A stretch of 50,631 nt of DNA from Erysipelotrichaceae bacterium (lineage in GTDB: Bacteria; Bacillota_I; Bacilli_A; Erysipelotrichales; Erysipelotrichaceae), in assembly GCA_030528645.1 (NCBI GenBank), contig JAUMYM010000009.1, forward strand, positions 1-50,631, written 5' to 3'. Within the stretch, counting starts at the first letter, position 1; each line of letters opens with the position of its first letter. The notes under the pieces are model-generated. The model did no database searches. It was given only the letters and a program-made list of their open reading frames with translations, and was not told the origin of the DNA. Of this stretch, positions 14,630-34,947 are shown piece after piece. The position numbers and the translations under genes are program-made.

Positions 14630-16324
14630 TTAATAATAATACAACGTAATTGTATTCCCTTCACTTTGAGTATAAGCAACTCCACTTACAGGTAATGTTT
14701 CAATGACTACATTTACTTTTAGATTATCAATTTGATCCTGTGTCATCTCGCTTGTATCTAATTGACTCAAAACAACTTCTGCACCCATTGACTCTAATAA
14801 CTCTTTTGCTTGTATGACATCCATACCAACAATATTAAATGGAATTACAAATGTTTTATAGCTTGCATAAACAAAACGCATTTCACTGATTTTATTACCA
14901 TCAAACTTTTCATTTGGTAGCAGAAGCTCTTGAGCAATAATCGTACCTGCCTTTACTTCATTATTTTCCATAGGAACAGAAATAACTCGCACATTTGGAT
15001 AACGTGTCGTTACATCTTTAATCGCCTCATCAATATTTTGATGAGTATAATCATTCATAACCGAATAAATACCACTACTTACTACGATTGTAACACGACT
15101 CCCTTTATTGACAGCAGTATCTACATCCGGAGTTACTTCAATAATTAGTCCCTTTTCAACATCATTGGTTAAAATACGTTTAATATTTTGACGATCTAAA
15201 TCTAAACCAGATTCTAATAAAACCTCACTTGCCTGCTCAACAGTTAAATTAAGTATATTGGGTACCTTGACCGTTTTATTTTGTTTACCAATGACACCGG
15301 AAACATATAAAAGAAATACACACATCAATACAACAACTATACTTGCTAAAGAAATCATCACATAACCAGCATAACTCTTTTCTTTCTTTTTATGTACAGT
15401 AGCTTTTTTTACTTGAGGTTCAACCGGTTTAGAATCCGCAACCTTACTAATCACTTTTGTATAATTTTCTTCCGGTGCTTGAGGTTTATATTTCCCTTCA
15501 CTAGCGCGCTTGGTATCGAAACAACTATTTAAATCTTGTAATAATTCATGTCCATTTGCATAACGATGCAATCTATTTTTAGCACATGCCTTTTGAATGA
15601 TATTATCAATGGATTGTGGAACACTTGGATTAATATCTCGTACAGAAGGCATTTGATTCTGCATGTGCGATATAGCAACACTAACAGCTTGTTCTCCACT
15701 AAATGGAACTTTCCCTGTCAACAATTCATAAAACACAATACCTAAAGCATATAAATCTGATTGTGCCGTAGCATTTTCACCACGAGCCAACTCCGGGGCC
15801 AAGTAATGTACAGAACCCATAACCGAATCTGTCTGTGTCAATTGTAGGGCATCATTTGCAAGAGCAATCCCAAAATCTACGACCTTGATTGTACCATCAT
15901 CTTTCACCAATACGTTTTGAGGTTTAATGTCACGATGAATAACACCATTACGATGTGCTTCAATTAAAGCATTTGTCAACTGTTTAATAATATGAACCGC
16001 TTCTTCTTTTAAAAGCGCACCACGATCGTTGATAAGCTGTTTCAAGGTTTTTCCTTTAACATATTCCATAACGATAAAACTTTTATCTTGATCTTGACCT
16101 ACATCATATATTTCAACAATGTTTGGATGAATTAAAGAACTTGATGCACAAGCTTCTTGTTTAAAACGTAAAATAGATACCGGATCACTCGTTAGTTCTC
16201 CACGTAAGATTTTAATCGCCACTTCACGATTTAAAACCATATCATTGGCAAAATATACATCTGCCATACCACCACTACCAATATGTTTTAGTAAGACATA
16301 TCGATTTGCAATCACTCTACTCAT
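14630..16324 (-). CDS. prkC: PASTA-domain Ser/Thr protein kinase PrkC
   Basis: This is a membrane Hanks-type kinase that senses cell-wall fragments. The kinase domain (about 1-270) has GSGGMADVYFA, catalytic Lys in VAIKILR, HRDIKPQN and DFGIA. A basic linker precedes one membrane segment near 320-345. Outside there are three PASTA-like repeats (about 350-420, 422-490, 491-564); the second is the most divergent. Its start overlaps prpC by 8 bp, the usual kinase/phosphatase pairing. Expected targets include cell-wall synthesis and translation GTPases; none is proven by sequence. Confidence 0.96.
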   Translation of the reverse strand: MSRVIANRYVLLKHIGSGGMADVYFANDMVLNREVAIKILRGELTSDPVSILRFKQEACASSSLIHPNIVEIYDVGQDQDKSFIVMEYVKGKTLKQLINDRGALLKEEAVHIIKQLTNALIEAHRNGVIHRDIKPQNVLVKDDGTIKVVDFGIALANDALQLTQTDSVMGSVHYLAPELARGENATAQSDLYALGIVFYELLTGKVPFSGEQAVSVAISHMQNQMPSVRDINPSVPQSIDNIIQKACAKNRLHRYANGHELLQDLNSCFDTKRASEGKYKPQAPEENYTKVISKVADSKPVEPQVKKATVHKKKEKSYAGYVMISLASIVVVLMCVFLLYVSGVIGKQNKTVKVPNILNLTVEQASEVLLESGLDLDRQNIKRILTNDVEKGLIIEVTPDVDTAVNKGSRVTIVVSSGIYSVMNDYTHQNIDEAIKDVTTRYPNVRVISVPMENNEVKAGTIIAQELLLPNEKFDGNKISEMRFVYASYKTFVIPFNIVGMDVIQAKELLESMGAEVVLSQLDTSEMTQDQIDNLKVNVVIETLPVSGVAYTQSEGNTITLYYY

Positions 16325-17063
16325 CTTGTGCTCCTTTCTCCATTTGTATTAAAATTTCAGTAATGTTATCGTATCCACCAGCTGCAAGGGCTAGATGCAT
16401 TAATTTCTTTCCTTTATTTGAAACCGGTTCATTCTCTACTAAAATATTTAAAATATATTGTTCATCAACATATCCAAATAAGCCATCACTGCATATCAAA
16501 TATACATCATAATGTGTATTCAATTTCATTAAGTCTATATTTACACTTGCCCATATTCCTAAAGCATTAGTAATCGATTTTGCCTTAGGATGCATACATG
16601 CCTCTTTTGGAGTTACCTTTCCACTTCTTAACAGTTCATTATATAAATTATGATCATTGGTTAATTGATGAAGTTGATGATGTTTGACACCATAAACACG
16701 ACTATCCCCAATATTGAAGATATAATGTGCATGTTTGGTAATTAAAATACCTGTAAGTGTTGTTCCCATACCTTGATATTTTTTTGATGTAGTTGATAAT
16801 ACATATACCAATTCATTTGCCTTACGAATGTGATAATTTAAAAAAGACTCAATATCAATGTCATCCTTAAAACCACGATGCACCTGAAAGACTTGAGCTA
16901 AATAATTAATACTTTCTTGGGAGGCAATTTCTCCATAATTACCACCACCGATACCATCCGCAACCGCAGCTAAAACATCGCCTACTTCATTATAGGCAAT
17001 GATATAACTGTCTTGATTCATTTTACGTAGAAATCCCTTATCGGTTGCTCCAAAACACTTCAC
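16317..17063 (-). CDS. prpC: PP2C-type Ser/Thr protein phosphatase PrpC
   Basis: This metal-dependent phosphatase opposes PrkC. It has the PPM motifs ATDKGFLRKMNQD (metal Asp), VADGIGGGNYGE, GMGTTLTG, FNIGDSRVYG, and the late SDGL and GGYDN. The length is 248 aa. The start is GTG at 17063 within a GTGA overlap with rlmN; ATGGAG lies 7 nt upstream and no suitable ATG exists nearby. It is coupled to prkC downstream. Confidence 0.95.
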   Translation of the reverse strand: MKCFGATDKGFLRKMNQDSYIIAYNEVGDVLAAVADGIGGGNYGEIASQESINYLAQVFQVHRGFKDDIDIESFLNYHIRKANELVYVLSTTSKKYQGMGTTLTGILITKHAHYIFNIGDSRVYGVKHHQLHQLTNDHNLYNELLRSGKVTPKEACMHPKAKSITNALGIWASVNIDLMKLNTHYDVYLICSDGLFGYVDEQYILNILVENEPVSNKGKKLMHLALAAGGYDNITEILIQMEKGAQDE

Positions 17064-26790: not shown

Positions 26791-26819
26791 TATCATTGCT
26801 TTATATAAGGAGGAACAAA

Positions 26820-27809
26820 ATGAAAGACAACAAAGGATTGATTAAAAATTACTGGTTTGTTGGAGTAATTGCACTTTGTTTAGTAACAATTTTAGGCTAT
26901 TTCGTACACGAAAAAATATCTGCCGGTGAGTTTAACTACCTGCAAGGAAAAAAAGTAGATGGCAAAGATGTTATTTATACAATTGGTGATAAGGTTTCAA
27001 CAGCCGATGAAATGTATGAAGTACTATATGAAAAATATGGAGTGGAACGTGTGTATAACGCTCTTCAAAAAGCAGTGATTGACCAAGGTGTAGAAACAAC
27101 GGATGAAATCAAAGAGCAAGCACAACACTTATCAGATGATTTAATCCAAAGAGCAATTCAAAGTTATGGGGCAGAACACTATGAAGCTTATATTGTATCT
27201 CAATTAAAAAACTTAGGTTATACATCACTGAAAGATTTACCTCAATATTACACCGTTTCATTAAAGTTTAACCAACTGATTGAAGACTATGTTAATACTC
27301 ATATTGATGAAGTATATCCAGCATTTAATGAAGCATTTAAGCCACGTATGGTAAGTCACATTCTAATTAAACTTGCAGATCCAGCAAATCCAACAGAAGA
27401 AGAACTTGCATTAGTACAATCTGTCCAAACTGCCCTAGCAAACGGTGAAGACTTTACAAAAGTCGCAACAGAGTACTCTCAAGATGGAAGTGCTGCAAAT
27501 GGTGGATCATTAGGCTACATGGATGTCACAACTCAATTTGTAACACCATTTAAAGATGCTGCACTAGCATTAAACCAAGGTGAAGTAAGTGATTTAGTCT
27601 TAAGTGAATTTGGTTATCACATCATTAAAGTAGATTCAACCGAACTTGAAGAATTAAAACAGCAAGAACAATTTTATAACGCAATGATTAACAATGATCC
27701 AACCATTGCATCAAAAGCTGTCTGGAATAAAGCACAAGAATTAAATATTACTTTTGCAAATGAAGAATTAGAAACAGCTTTAAAGAAACATATGGGAATA
27801 GGAGAATAA
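26820..27809 (+). CDS. Membrane-anchored parvulin-type foldase (PrsA-like)
   Basis: This protein folds secreted proteins on the outer face of the membrane. Of 329 aa, residues 11-29 form one membrane segment that lacks a lipobox, so it is a transmembrane-anchored variant, unlike the lipoprotein PrsA. An N-terminal SurA/trigger-like helical part (about 55-170) is followed by a PPIC parvulin domain (175-271) with VSHILIKL, the catalytic-region hallmark NGGSLGYM, and FGYHIIKV, all intact. A closing helix follows. The start at 26820 follows AAGGAGG; an earlier TTG is spurious. The next gene begins two bases after its stop. Confidence 0.88.
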   Translation: MKDNKGLIKNYWFVGVIALCLVTILGYFVHEKISAGEFNYLQGKKVDGKDVIYTIGDKVSTADEMYEVLYEKYGVERVYNALQKAVIDQGVETTDEIKEQAQHLSDDLIQRAIQSYGAEHYEAYIVSQLKNLGYTSLKDLPQYYTVSLKFNQLIEDYVNTHIDEVYPAFNEAFKPRMVSHILIKLADPANPTEEELALVQSVQTALANGEDFTKVATEYSQDGSAANGGSLGYMDVTTQFVTPFKDAALALNQGEVSDLVLSEFGYHIIKVDSTELEELKQQEQFYNAMINNDPTIASKAVWNKAQELNITFANEELETALKKHMGIGE

Positions 27810-27811
27810 CG

Positions 27812-28687
27812 ATGAAAAAGTTAACAATACTATTAACTTCATTACTTATATTAAGTGGATGTGGGAAAAATGTTAGTGCAAATATCTCATTTGCCAACGA
27901 TGAATTACTAACGGTTGGAAACACTAAGATTACAAAAGGTGAAATCTATCAAACATTAAAGAACTCTGGATCATCATTTTACATCATCGAAGAAGCTACT
28001 GACTACTTTATTGAAAAAGAAATTACAAACAATGATGCATTGATGGAAAAAGCACTTGGTGAATTAGAAAATATTAAAAAATTATATGGCGATAATTTCT
28101 CTAGTATTATTTCAAGCTATGGATATACTTCTGAAGAAGAATTTGTAAAAAACACAATTCTTCAACAACTGCAAGTACAAGAATTAAATAATACATACTT
28201 AAATGAAAATCTACAAACATATCTTGATAGTTATTTACCTAAAAAAGCTCAACTGATGACTTTTGACAACTTAGATACAGCCCAAAATGCTTATGTTGCA
28301 TTAACAGAAGGAAAAGACTTTAAAGAGATCGCAAGTCAAATGAATTCATCAAGTAATCCTGATGAACTAATTTATACTTCAAAATCTCTTTTAGCCAGTC
28401 CTGTTAAATTTTATTTAGATAAGGCAGAAACAGCAGGTTTATCAGAAGTATTAATTGATGCTGAAAATACAAAATATTATCTTGTAAATATAACTTCAGT
28501 TGATCCTACAACCTATAAAGATGAATTCATTGAATCCATTGCACATGATCAAGAAGTCGTACAATCTGCTTTAAGTTATTACTTTAAAAAATATAACTTT
28601 ACATTATATGACATTGATATTTATCAACAATTTAAAGAATCATATCCAACCTATTTAAATCAAAAAGAAATTAACAATAAAAAATAA
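27812..28687 (+). CDS. PrsA/SurA-like lipoprotein with degenerate PPIase region
   Basis: This is a 291-residue lipoprotein whose signal ends in LSGC (Cys17). The opening after it (LLTVGNTKITKGEIYQTLK) matches the start of PrsA/SurA-type chaperones, followed by a helical part. The region where a parvulin domain should lie (about 150-232) keeps helical and strand blocks (AYVALTEGKDFKEIASQM, TKYYLVNITSV) but lacks the GGxLG signature and the SHIL/HIIK histidines. It therefore probably acts as a chaperone without proline isomerase activity. Cotranscribed with the foldase; ends on a strong terminator. Confidence 0.8.
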   Translation: MKKLTILLTSLLILSGCGKNVSANISFANDELLTVGNTKITKGEIYQTLKNSGSSFYIIEEATDYFIEKEITNNDALMEKALGELENIKKLYGDNFSSIISSYGYTSEEEFVKNTILQQLQVQELNNTYLNENLQTYLDSYLPKKAQLMTFDNLDTAQNAYVALTEGKDFKEIASQMNSSSNPDELIYTSKSLLASPVKFYLDKAETAGLSEVLIDAENTKYYLVNITSVDPTTYKDEFIESIAHDQEVVQSALSYYFKKYNFTLYDIDIYQQFKESYPTYLNQKEINNKK

Positions 28688-29819: not shown

Positions 29820-29823
29820 AATA

Positions 29824-29851
29824 AAGGATTGTATCCTATGATACAACCCTT
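29824..29851. terminator. Bidirectional terminator between the HIT and glucosaminidase genes
   Basis: A 12-bp stem (AAGGATTGTATC / GATACAACCCTT, one mismatch) and 4-nt loop separates two convergent genes. T-rich tails are present on both strands. Confidence 0.88.
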
Positions 29852-29852
29852 T

Positions 29853-32800
29853 TTATTTTGTTACGGTAAACTCCAGTATGTTTTTATTATGCTTAATGCG
29901 TTCTACTTTAATAGATGGTTGATTTATGTTTATTTTTGATGAAGATGAACGTAAATCAATATAATCAATTAAGCTACCATTTTCAATACGTAATACAGCA
30001 TAGTAACGTCCACCATCTAACTGATCTAATGGTAAATCAAAACTAAACCACGATGTATCATAGTTATAAGAAGATGTAATGTTTTCTGAATGTTTCCATG
30101 AAGGAAACTCTGTTAAACTACTGATAGCTTCTGTATCAAACATTTTCATTTCATTTGTATCTTTATTCATTAAATACAATTTATATTTTACATTTGCAGC
30201 ATCTACATTCCATATAAAACTTGTCCCAGCTAATGTTAATGTATTAGTATCAGCATTAAATTTTATACCACTTACATATAAGTAACTTTCTCTTATAGAT
30301 GGTAATGCTGTCTTATCACCTGCTACAAATTGATCATCAATAAGCAATTCAAAACGATTTGAATACCCTTTTTCTTTTCTTAATGAATAATATCTTTCAT
30401 TGATACTTTGTCCAAGTAATTCCTTTACCTGTCTTGAAGCAAACAATGACTTACTAAAACGTTCTTCTTGAATTGTTGTGATTAAATTAAATTTATAATT
30501 TCCTTTTTCAAAGGTAGTAGTATCAATGGTTCCTTCAAACCATCCTAAATCATAATTAAAACCATCCTTGAAGCCATCACTAAGATTATAATCACCTGTA
30601 TGGCTTTGTAAATCAAAGGTATGAGTAACACGATTTTCAAATAAATCATACACTTCAACTTGATGCTTTACTTGGTCATGATTTAATCCTTCTACCATCG
30701 CTACACCTCGTAGTGTCAGTTTACCGGTATCATGAAACTCATACTTTGTAAGTAAAACATTATATACCTTTTTCACTTCTGGCTGTTTTGGTTCGTTTAC
30801 TACAGGTGGCTTAGGTGCTTCTTTACTTACGGTTAAGTAAACACGTTGATCATCTTTAGTAAGTTCGTATTTCATTTGATTCAACGTAATAGCCTTAGGT
30901 AAATCACCACTGTAATTTAAATATGTTTCTTCATTATACTCTGTATATTTAGAATAATTTGTTTTAATCTTGAAAGTATATTTACCCTCTTTAATATCTT
31001 GTAAATTTAAAGATTTATTAAAACTTGCAACTTCTTTATCTTTTATTGTTGTTACAGCATCATATTTAGTTTCTTCGTAATAATCATTGATAAAATATAA
31101 TTCATGAATAATTTTATTTTCCTCACTTACATGAATACCTGGACGATAACCTTTTCCATCAAAAACAATTTGGTTATTTTCAAATGTCAATTTTGATAAA
31201 TCAAAGACATACTCTGCTGTAGGAACTTTTCCTACATTTGATTCTGCCTTCGGTGCATTGATATATTTTAAATCACTACTTCTTGCATACACTTGACTTA
31301 AATCAAAATTATAATTTGTTTTTACACCTCTAAAGTTTTTATGTAAAATCAAAGAACCATCCGGATTAATCGCATTACTTGATTGCACTTTAGAAAATGC
31401 TCCCAAATTTTCATTTACATTTACTGTATAAACAAACTGATAACCAGAACGATTTAAACTATCATATTTACGGTTTACACCACTAGCATCCAAATAGAAA
31501 TTTGTAGGTTTATTGACTAGTGCAACAGAATATTGATTATAATCGGATAAATTACCATTGTAATTGTTATAGACCTTATCCATACGATAAGCAATCGAGC
31601 TGATTGAAGCACCCCAATATGGATCTGAGGCATATTTCACCCCAAAACCTGAACCTTTATTTCCATAATGACTACCAAAACTACGTGGATCATCCACATC
31701 CATATATCCACGAATATGGATTGCCGCCATTTCTAAAATACCATCACGAATCGAATGAAACGTATTGGCTGCCCCAACATTAGAATCCACTGCATTCCAA
31801 CCAAATAAATTAAATTTAGAAACAGCTAAATTACTTCGTCCATATCCAGATTCATGAATCGCATGAGCAAATAGCAATAATGCATTAACACCGTAATTAT
31901 TTTGAGCTTCAATAAACGTTGCTCCTTCATCCCATAACGTAGATTGATTTGCCTTTAAACTATAATAATTTTGCCCTTTGGTTGTTTTTTGAGTAATCCC
32001 TTTTGCTTCTGTTAAAAACTTATTGAATGCTTCCGCAGGTAGATTCGTCTTTGAACGAGCTGATAAATATTGATAATAATTATAATAAGTGCCAACCAGA
32101 TTACTATAAGAACGATCAGAATAGAAATGAATTCCATCCGCACTGTAATATCGACTTCCAACACTCATCCAATCACTTGCTGGACCAACTACTAAAGAAC
32201 GATGATTATATCCACCGTTTTTTGACCAACCAAAAAAGTAATGAAGAACTACATCACGGTAATTACCATTTTGTTCTATTGTATAGTATGGTTGTCCTAC
32301 TTGCATTAAAAATGGATCTTCCGGTTTAACTCCACTATTTAAACGATGATTTTTATGTCCACCTAAATATAATGGAATATCTGTACGCAAGTATTTTTCC
32401 GGTACTAAATCAACTCCATATAAACGTGCATAGCCTTTAAAACCGCCAAAGTTCATTGCAACAACACCATCACCCTTACCATTATAAGAGTACGTTGATG
32501 CCTGTTCTAAAGGATAATGCAAGGCAACATACGTAGATGTACCGCTTAAATTTGGATTATCATAAATATTTAATGTAACTTGATTAATACGCCACGAATA
32601 TGCATAAGCAAGACCTGATACCATCGCAATAATCTTACTTGGACTACCCGAAGCATGATGACGAACAACATGATCTCCTTGTAATTCGTTCATTTTATTT
32701 CGAGCAACATCAAAACTATTAAAACAAGCGACTGTATCAAAGCCACCAGAATCATTAATCCAAGCTACTTCGTAATTACTACAACCAATTTGATTTGCAT

Positions 32801-32876
32801 GTACATCAGCTACAAAAATAGGAATTGAAGCAAGCACTAAGCTCAATAACAAGATACCTTTTATAAACGTTTTCAT
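29853..32876 (-). CDS. Large secreted endo-beta-N-acetylglucosaminidase (GH73) with repeated C-terminal modules
   Basis: This is a 1007-residue exported wall hydrolase. A signal peptide ends at VHA (residue 27). Residues 100-160 resemble an SH3-type segment. The region 240-300 with YYNYYQYLSARSKTN resembles the stretch before the catalytic domain of LytD-type autolysins. The GH73 glucosaminidase domain spans about 310-440, with the catalytic Glu342 in AHAIHESGYGRSNLA. After that come three related beta-rich modules (about 556-655, 704-815 and 863-980), the last two sharing a Y-D-x-x-W-F block; a Pro/Lys-rich linker (about 687-703) precedes the second. No LPXTG or known wall-binding repeat is seen. 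It lies 12 bp after the anchored-protein gene. Confidence 0.9.
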   Translation of the reverse strand: MKTFIKGILLLSLVLASIPIFVADVHANQIGCSNYEVAWINDSGGFDTVACFNSFDVARNKMNELQGDHVVRHHASGSPSKIIAMVSGLAYAYSWRINQVTLNIYDNPNLSGTSTYVALHYPLEQASTYSYNGKGDGVVAMNFGGFKGYARLYGVDLVPEKYLRTDIPLYLGGHKNHRLNSGVKPEDPFLMQVGQPYYTIEQNGNYRDVVLHYFFGWSKNGGYNHRSLVVGPASDWMSVGSRYYSADGIHFYSDRSYSNLVGTYYNYYQYLSARSKTNLPAEAFNKFLTEAKGITQKTTKGQNYYSLKANQSTLWDEGATFIEAQNNYGVNALLLFAHAIHESGYGRSNLAVSKFNLFGWNAVDSNVGAANTFHSIRDGILEMAAIHIRGYMDVDDPRSFGSHYGNKGSGFGVKYASDPYWGASISSIAYRMDKVYNNYNGNLSDYNQYSVALVNKPTNFYLDASGVNRKYDSLNRSGYQFVYTVNVNENLGAFSKVQSSNAINPDGSLILHKNFRGVKTNYNFDLSQVYARSSDLKYINAPKAESNVGKVPTAEYVFDLSKLTFENNQIVFDGKGYRPGIHVSEENKIIHELYFINDYYEETKYDAVTTIKDKEVASFNKSLNLQDIKEGKYTFKIKTNYSKYTEYNEETYLNYSGDLPKAITLNQMKYELTKDDQRVYLTVSKEAPKPPVVNEPKQPEVKKVYNVLLTKYEFHDTGKLTLRGVAMVEGLNHDQVKHQVEVYDLFENRVTHTFDLQSHTGDYNLSDGFKDGFNYDLGWFEGTIDTTTFEKGNYKFNLITTIQEERFSKSLFASRQVKELLGQSINERYYSLRKEKGYSNRFELLIDDQFVAGDKTALPSIRESYLYVSGIKFNADTNTLTLAGTSFIWNVDAANVKYKLYLMNKDTNEMKMFDTEAISSLTEFPSWKHSENITSSYNYDTSWFSFDLPLDQLDGGRYYAVLRIENGSLIDYIDLRSSSSKININQPSIKVERIKHNKNILEFTVTK

Positions 32877-32888
32877 ACAATCCCCTTT

Positions 32889-33866
32889 CTACAAATCTAC
32901 ATTGATGATAATCTCATTTGTTTGTCCCTTAATTTTTAAATGAAGTGTTCCTTTACGTGTAATTGGATTTTTACTTGGATTTAACGTCATAAAAAACAAA
33001 GAACCCATTGACTTATCTGTAATTTTTAAACCTATTAAATTCACATACTTATTACTTTGAATATTAATCGGTAATGCTTCAAATACTTCATTTGTATCCG
33101 TTACATAACGGGCACTTTCAATTACAAGTTCATCCCCCCACAACGATACCGCTTCAATGTCAAAGCTGTAGATTTGTGATGTTGATGGCACTACATATTC
33201 TTCACTATAACCATCCTCAAAAGTAACCGTAAATTCTTCTCCTGTAATATCATACGCTTTGGAAACCTTCATTTGATATGTTTTACCATCCGAAATAACA
33301 TCATCCGCAACATATTTCAACAATTTGCTATCTGATGTTGTTTTTGTTAAATCAAACTTCAATTGTTTCTTTTCACCTAAATTAACATCCACTGTAAGAT
33401 CTTTTTGACTACCATCTTTTACCGGAATAAATATATTCGCTAAATAACTTGAATCCGTCGATATTAATTCAAACCAAACATTTTGCTTTCCTAAAAAATA
33501 CTGCTTATTTTCCAATTGTTGTACATAAGCATCTACTTGATCTAATAAGATTCCTTCACTTGTTCTAAAGTTTGACAAAGAAACATTAATAGAACCATCA
33601 TCGGCTTTAACACGAATTTTAGCGATTACAAATTTAAAGTCAATATCATCAAACTTATACACTTTATAGTCTATTAAATCCACTAAAAGTTTATCTAAAT
33701 CTTTACTTTTTTCCGGTTTTTGCAAATTACCTTGTTCAGGCAACTTTACCTCCTCTTTCATCGGACTCTTAAAAAAGCTTATTTTAAATAAATAGGCTGT
33801 ACTAGCAAGCACTAATATCCCTAATATAACAACAAATACTTTTAATTTTTTAGTTAAATTTTTCAT
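32889..33866 (-). CDS. Membrane-anchored extracellular protein of unknown function
   Basis: I do not recognise this 325-residue protein. A basic N-terminus and one membrane segment (about 9-27) without a lipobox or clear cleavage site suggest a type II anchored protein with a large external part. A Lys/Glu/Pro-rich linker (about 32-55) leads to a strand-rich body with alternating hydrophobics, ending FFMTLNPSKNPITRKGTLHLKI and INVDL. The start is the ATG at 33866, with GGAG upstream; an earlier TTG is ignored. It lies 12 bp before the glucosaminidase and probably shares its transcript, suggesting a wall-related role. Confidence 0.82.
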   Translation of the reverse strand: MKNLTKKLKVFVVILGILVLASTAYLFKISFFKSPMKEEVKLPEQGNLQKPEKSKDLDKLLVDLIDYKVYKFDDIDFKFVIAKIRVKADDGSINVSLSNFRTSEGILLDQVDAYVQQLENKQYFLGKQNVWFELISTDSSYLANIFIPVKDGSQKDLTVDVNLGEKKQLKFDLTKTTSDSKLLKYVADDVISDGKTYQMKVSKAYDITGEEFTVTFEDGYSEEYVVPSTSQIYSFDIEAVSLWGDELVIESARYVTDTNEVFEALPINIQSNKYVNLIGLKITDKSMGSLFFMTLNPSKNPITRKGTLHLKIKGQTNEIIINVDL

Positions 33867-33883
33867 ATTAAATCTCCATAATA

Positions 33884-33892
33884 ATTCTATCA
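33884..33892 (-). promoter_or_regulatory. Extended -10 promoter of the anchored-protein/glucosaminidase pair
   Basis: TGATAGAAT is an extended -10 element 18 nt before the start codon, downstream of the galE terminator. No clear -35 was found. Confidence 0.5.
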
Positions 33893-33923
33893 CATTCTCA
33901 CTCAAATAGAGCAGGTATTTATA

Positions 33924-33949
33924 AAAAAAGCCCTTATATTCTAAGAGCT
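33924..33949 (-). terminator. Terminator of galE
   Basis: An 8-bp stem AGCTCTTA / TAAGGGCT (one G-U pair) with a 5-nt loop and seven T; the stem starts at the galE stop codon. Confidence 0.88.
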
Positions 33950-34947
33950 TACTTTAAGCTTTTTTGAAAATTCCAACTATCCTTACACATTTGATCCACA
34001 TCACATTCTGCTTTAAATCCTAGTAACTTAAATGCCTTAGTAGGATCTGCATAGCATGTTGCAATATCACCCGGTCGACGTTCTACAATCTTAAATGGAA
34101 CTTCTTTGCCACTCGCTTTTTCAAAGGCATTCTTCAATTGAAGTACAGAATATCCCTTTCCTGTTCCAAGGTTAAAGGCTTCAATAGATTCATGATCAAT
34201 GACATATTCACAAGCTTTCACATGTCCTTGAGCTAAATCTACAACATGGATGTAATCACGAACACCAGTACCATCCACGGTATCGTAATCATCACCAAAT
34301 ACTCTTAAATAGTCACGAATACCTACGGCTGTTTGCGCAATGTATGGAAGTAAATTATTTGGTATACCATTTGGTACTTCACCAATTAAACCTGATTCAT
34401 GTGCCCCAATTGGATTAAAATATCTTAATAGTGCAATTGACCAAGTAGGATCTGATTTATATAAATCTTGCAAAATCATTTCATTAAATAATTTAGTTGT
34501 ACCATACGGATTTGTTGTACTTAATGGAAAATCTTCTTTAATTGGCACTGTATGTGGATCACCATATACCGTTGCACTAGAAGAAAAGACTAACTTCTTA
34601 ACATTGTGTTTCTTCATAATTTCATACAGATTTAAAGATCCGGCTACATTATTTTGATAATACGTTAGAGGAATACTTACAGATTCTCCAACTGCTTTAT
34701 AACCTGCAAAATGAATAACCGCATCAAATTTATGTTCTACAAACACTTGATTTAAAGCAATTTTATCTAAAATATCCACCTGATAAAATGTAGGTTTTAC
34801 CTTTGTAATATGTTCAATTGCATCTAATACTGTAATTGATGAATTATATAAATTATCTACAATTACAACTTCATGTCCACTTTTTATTAATTCCACACAA
34901 GTATGAGAACCAATATAACCTGTACCACCTGTAACTAAAATTTTCAT
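33949..34947 (-). CDS. galE: UDP-glucose 4-epimerase
   Basis: This NAD-dependent short-chain dehydrogenase interconverts UDP-Glc and UDP-Gal (and possibly the N-acetyl forms), feeding surface-glycan synthesis. The 332 aa show the Rossmann motif GGTGYIGSH, HFAGYKAVGES, the Ser/Tyr/Lys triad in SSSATVYGD and NPYGTTKLFNE, and VRDYIHVVDLAQGH. The start at 34947 follows GGAGG; a TTG 12 bases earlier is spurious. It starts just after DUF368 ends. No galK or galT is nearby, so the role is more likely anabolic than catabolic. Confidence 0.95.
   Translation of the reverse strand: MKILVTGGTGYIGSHTCVELIKSGHEVVIVDNLYNSSITVLDAIEHITKVKPTFYQVDILDKIALNQVFVEHKFDAVIHFAGYKAVGESVSIPLTYYQNNVAGSLNLYEIMKKHNVKKLVFSSSATVYGDPHTVPIKEDFPLSTTNPYGTTKLFNEMILQDLYKSDPTWSIALLRYFNPIGAHESGLIGEVPNGIPNNLLPYIAQTAVGIRDYLRVFGDDYDTVDGTGVRDYIHVVDLAQGHVKACEYVIDHESIEAFNLGTGKGYSVLQLKNAFEKASGKEVPFKIVERRPGDIATCYADPTKAFKLLGFKAECDVDQMCKDSWNFQKSLK

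Follow-up and report, generated by a model that had tools for sequence, protein, structure and literature searches.

A membrane-anchored beta-sandwich protein and a LytB-like glucosaminidase form a conserved gene pair in the Erysipelotrichaceae

The placement of autolysins is an open question for most bacteria, and the locus studied here raises it in a specific form: does a gene for an anchored protein that lies immediately ahead of a wall hydrolase gene encode a partner of this enzyme? The locus occupies positions 29853 to 33892 (minus strand) of the window, i.e. the stretch of 50,631 nucleotides that was analysed. The source genome (1.38 Mb in 28 contigs) has Erysipelotrichaceae bacterium OH741_COT-311 as its nearest named relative, with an A protein that is 94% identical. 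The preliminary description had placed an anchored protein (A) 12 bp ahead of a GH73 gene (B), and the reading frames, the hydrophobic N-terminus of A and the PF01832 match of B bear this out; the ribosome site of B sits in the gap. It had also proposed one promoter and one final terminator for both genes. A terminator-like hairpin does indeed follow B, and a hairpin search of the locus revealed none between A and B. The promoter part is less firm: the consensus match at 33905-33878 overlaps the ribosome site of A, and promoter-like matches around A are even fewer than in shuffled sequence (26 vs 40.3 +/- 6.4). The region upstream of A is nearly identical in the sister species, and a single promoter for both genes is plausible. 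The two-gene unit itself is real. Elsewhere in the window, there are two tandem genes for PrsA-like foldases (26796-28687), of which one begins with a transmembrane segment and the other resembles a lipoprotein, as well as genes for a PASTA-domain Ser/Thr kinase (14630-16324) and its phosphatase (16317-17063), a possible regulator of wall enzymes.

Features of the A-B locus; positions are those of the window, residues those of the encoded proteins.
Feature	Position	Strand	Description
Terminator-like hairpin 3' of galE	33928..33950	-	separates galE from A
Upstream region of A	33867..33905	-	includes ribosome site; promoter not firmly identified
Gene A	32889..33866	-	325 aa; ATG 33866, stop 32889; Shine-Dalgarno GGAG
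Domains of A			TM helix ~2-29; linker to ~56; Ig-like ~57-180; DUF4352-like beta-sandwich ~184-325 (predicted: AlphaFold model and fold matches)
Gene B	29853..32876	-	1007 aa; ATG 32876; secreted LytB-like GH73 N-acetylglucosaminidase, no TM after signal peptide
Signal peptide of B	32795..32876	-	residues 1 to ~27; hydrophobic N-terminus and sequence
SH3b-like domain of B	32396..32621	-	residues ~86-160; AlphaFold model and structure alignment
WW-like motif of B	32124..32174	-	residues 235-251; PF17890 (LytB WW-like), E 1.2e-4, below curated cut-off
GH73 catalytic domain of B	31578..31922	-	residues 319-433; PF01832, E 1.7e-14
C-terminal part of B	29856..31260	-	residues ~540-1007; repeats rich in beta-strands; low conservation; no Pfam match
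Terminator-like hairpin 3' of B	29823..29852	-	

The enzyme does not belong to an unfamiliar kind; B is LytB-like both in its modules and in its aligned catalytic residue: The closest solved structures are those of pneumococcal LytB (E about 1e-23), and Glu342 of B aligns (E 3e-23 for this alignment) with the catalytic glutamate of LytB, Glu585 (PMC4633669). This residue is invariant in 89 of 89 relatives. The model of residues 27-300 has a pLDDT of 86, and its SH3b and WW part superimposes on the LytB structure 4q2w with a VIA-align Z of 10.2 (rmsd 2.1, 120 residues), while the SH3b-like domain gives Z values of 5-7 with bacterial SH3b domains. Pfam detected no choline-binding repeats in the B protein of the window, and no hydrophobic segment was found in it beyond the signal peptide. 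Thus, B of the window is a LytB core without choline-binding repeats, to which a distinct N-terminal part and a long strand-rich C-terminus are added. The only other GH73 gene of the source genome (contig C27, 113523-116282; L232 1524-4283) encodes a protein of 919 aa with a C-terminal transmembrane helix.

Protein A has a single hydrophobic segment, which is located at the N-terminus. Its AlphaFold model (pLDDT 89.7, pTM 0.80, 31 sequences) predicts a helix at the N-terminus that is joined by a disordered linker to two beta-sandwich domains. In this model, the first domain has weak Ig-like matches (Z < 7), and the second one shares the fold of YjhA (3cfu; Z 10.4, rmsd 2.8, 120 residues), MPT63 (1lmi; Z 10.3), YxkC (9a4z; Z 9.0) and YcdA (4r4g; Z 8.5). 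Folds of the 3cfu, 9a4z and 4r4g type go by the names DUF4352 or telokin-like. By its predicted fold, the second domain of A is therefore DUF4352-like, and it is not filed as a DUF4352 member: a search of 25 members at E 0.1 yielded no DUF4352-type Pfam match. The window protein matched no Pfam family, and no family matched more than one of the 25 members even weakly; no solved structure matching A by sequence was found either. An anti-CRISPR-like NCBIfam match (E 0.007, 16 bits vs a cut-off of 40) was judged to be due to chance. According to its title, entry 9a4z is a model of YxkC with DacA; we found no literature linking the two proteins. In B. subtilis, DacA is a peptidoglycan carboxypeptidase. 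All 84 near-complete A frames start with a hydrophobic N-terminus. This is a lipobox in L119/L122, L132 and L143 and a transmembrane helix in the others; the ectodomain of A is thus outside the cell. The conserved motifs of A include YLGKQNVWF and DVITDGKTY.

How tightly are the two genes linked? Among 94 distinct A frames, which include a few fragments, 86 have B directly 3' on the same strand; seven of the others lie at contig ends, and one belongs to an A-A'-B tandem duplication (L168 4617-5618 and the following frame). Homologues of A in unrelated contexts, which the preliminary description had considered as an argument against the pair, did not appear: wherever the sequence 3' of A is readable, a GH73 gene follows, and no such A was found without B. 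The layout does not suggest separate transcription either, as the genes abut or overlap throughout (median stop-to-start gap 9 bp over 90 pairs, 19 of them overlapping). Since the arrangement recurs in every readable homologous locus, it is far beyond chance, and chance adjacency is ruled out by the presence of B after all 86 readable A frames. The direct upstream neighbour of A is galE in 42 of the 94 cases and an acetyltransferase, DinB/SRAP-type or ABC gene elsewhere; hence, the A-B pair is kept while its surroundings change. In 40 loci, the pairwise distances of A and B given galE correlate at 0.57, as compared to 0.38 for A and galE given B, which we regard as supporting evidence only. 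Taken as a whole, the genomic data strongly support a partnership, and A and B very probably form a working pair.

The pair has a defined distribution. Homologues of A occur in 83 of the 195 genomes of the GTDB family Erysipelotrichaceae (25 of 59 genera), and B-like enzymes in 153 of them. No full-length relative of A was detected outside the family in class and phylum samples, where the weak, scattered matches cover nearly exclusively the transmembrane segment; where other families of the class have B-like enzymes, these come without A. A phage or plasmid origin of A was rejected, as phages, plasmids and viral contigs gave no match. Within the family, 11 B loci lack A, which takes about five changes on the B tree, and these enzymes show other routes of attachment: (i) Four carry choline-binding repeats (by Pfam in the two that were scanned, by motif in all four). 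(ii) Another four are of the dockerin type, with Pfam matches in L095 and L097 and assignment of L098 and L106 as close relatives of L097. (iii) In the remaining three, the next gene encodes a transmembrane PASTA protein. Conservation of the catalytic core of B is the same in lineages with and without A. A and other attachment modules do not strictly exclude each other, as seen from the A-paired B proteins, of which 16 of 77 contain a dockerin and two of 77 choline-binding repeats. The latter two are taken to be L099 and L105 from their place on the tree, as the Pfam output gave no names; in these loci, A is shortened to 204 and 201 aa, respectively.

The description as a two-gene unit is too narrow for many relatives, which possess a third, mostly PASTA membrane protein gene, so that the window represents the two-gene form. 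Directly after B, 48 of 77 loci with enough sequence have a gene for a protein with a hydrophobic N-terminus; PASTA domains are present in 32 and cadherin-like domains in 13 of these 48. The transmembrane PASTA gene often overlaps the glucosaminidase gene (e.g. L088 5002-6000, L089 239-1354, L151 8546-10522). The window has no third gene, although genes for two transmembrane PASTA proteins stand on their own elsewhere in its genome. Next to dockerin-bearing glucosaminidases, on their 3' side, secreted Ig/cadherin-like proteins are encoded, some of which end in a membrane helix (L097 3-1352, L106 4274-6001, L212 534-2159, L158 7765-9699). We suspect a cohesin-like role of these proteins; Pfam and PDB searches gave no match for a cohesin partner of the dockerin-bearing enzymes.

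What might A do for B? The preliminary description had proposed a dedicated regulator or tether. That A is a dedicated partner is well supported by the linkage; sequence does not decide between the two roles, but several indirect observations favour the tether. Our preferred reading, for which we see somewhat better than even chances, is that A is dedicated to B, which it tethers or positions at the membrane, and that both form an obligate functional pair. B would be exported and would cut the glycan strands of peptidoglycan as a LytB-type N-acetylglucosaminidase, probably in daughter-cell separation or septal remodelling; the former role is suggested by LytB and by the PASTA neighbours. A would be anchored in the membrane with its two beta-sandwich domains facing the wall, and it would most likely bind B after export and hold or position it at the interface of membrane and wall. 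In this way, B could cut nascent strands rather than being lost to the medium. What the analysis shows is the pairing of the genes, the anchoring, the domain composition, the conservation and the swapping of attachment parts; that A binds and tethers B, and where and to what end B cuts, is inferred. Tethering is the best-supported mechanism because A is always anchored and B is not, because A stays anchored even where a lipobox takes the place of the helix, and because the enzymes that lack A have other attachment routes. Moreover, the absence of a transmembrane segment from B is set against the C-terminal helix of the other GH73 protein of the genome, A has shrunk in L099/L105, where B probably gained choline-binding repeats, and the predicted fold of the second domain of A is common to YxkC, the protein modelled with DacA. 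On the other side of the balance are the dockerins in A-paired enzymes, indicating that A and other modules are not mutually exclusive, the existence of B-like enzymes without A outside the family, and the small number of A-lacking lineages.

The close packing of the two genes as such also fits shared regulation without contact. If A had a wall or surface role of its own and sat in one operon with B for common regulation only, this would agree with both being surface proteins; however, the linkage without exception in 25 genera, amid neighbours that change, and the correlated divergence of A and B beyond that of galE make this quite improbable. An equally improbable role for A is that of an inhibitor or self-protection factor which would hold the autolysin in an inactive state at the membrane while it is being exported. 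The gene order, with A before B, and the result that A was not found without B are in line with such a function, but lineages and families that have B without A show that B is not lethal on its own, and A would act only near the membrane. The existence of B without A thus makes self-protection less likely. The idea that A serves as an activator or orienting scaffold deserves more weight, even though we still consider it rather unlikely: B would be weak or misdirected until the domains of A bind and open or orient its catalytic cleft, after the manner of SpdC, which orients the active site in SagB, likewise a GH73 enzyme (PMC10581084). The structures of LytB include, judged by their titles, open and closed forms, and A has conserved motifs of its own. 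On the other hand, the catalytic core of B is no less conserved where A is missing, and SpdC, a membrane protein, has its homologues among the CAAX proteases and is not DUF4352-like. Activation of B by A, of the kind proposed for SpdC and SagB, may occur either alone or together with tethering.

If A is indeed a tether, it is tempting to speculate that A and B, in many relatives together with the PASTA protein, form an undescribed wall-cutting complex of the Erysipelotrichaceae. In this complex, a beta-sandwich tether unrelated to SpdC would hold a LytB-type glucosaminidase at the membrane, the PASTA protein would add wall recognition, and the lineages would swap the attachment part, i.e. the DUF4352-like tether, choline-binding repeats, dockerin or PASTA protein, around a constant catalytic core. 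We put this forward tentatively, and doubts outweigh our confidence. The A/B loci constitute a natural series of different attachments for one and the same enzyme core, and an unnamed protein family present in 83 genomes of the family sample gains a testable function. While membrane-partnered GH73 enzymes are already known, our search of the open-licence literature found no published account of the A-B pair, of A as a partner family, of its strict operon linkage or of the exchange of attachment parts.

The coupling of a wall hydrolase and an accessory protein in one operon is also seen in LytABC of Bacillus subtilis; there, LytC is an amidase and the accessory proteins belong to other families. 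YjhA, YxkC and YcdA are Gram-positive surface proteins, one of them modelled with a wall enzyme, that share the predicted fold of the second domain of A. What sets A apart from them is an extra Ig-like domain, the constant linkage to GH73 and the absence of a Pfam sequence match. With LytB of Streptococcus pneumoniae, B has in common the order of SH3b, WW-like and GH73 modules as well as the aligned catalytic glutamate. In contrast to LytB with its choline-binding domain, however, B of the window lacks this part, which appears as choline-binding repeats in some A-lacking relatives, and it has an N-terminal beta-alpha-beta part, the long strand-rich C-terminus and A as a linked partner. A close parallel is provided by S. 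aureus, in which the GH73 N-acetylglucosaminidase SagB is scaffolded at the membrane by SpdC (LyrA) (PMC10581084). Like SagB, B very probably has a dedicated membrane partner. Yet SpdC is an integral homologue of CAAX proteases and A a single helix with two predicted beta-sandwich domains, and SagB is membrane-associated whereas the LytB-like B has no transmembrane segment after its signal peptide. A would represent a second, unrelated type of partner for GH73 enzymes besides SpdC.
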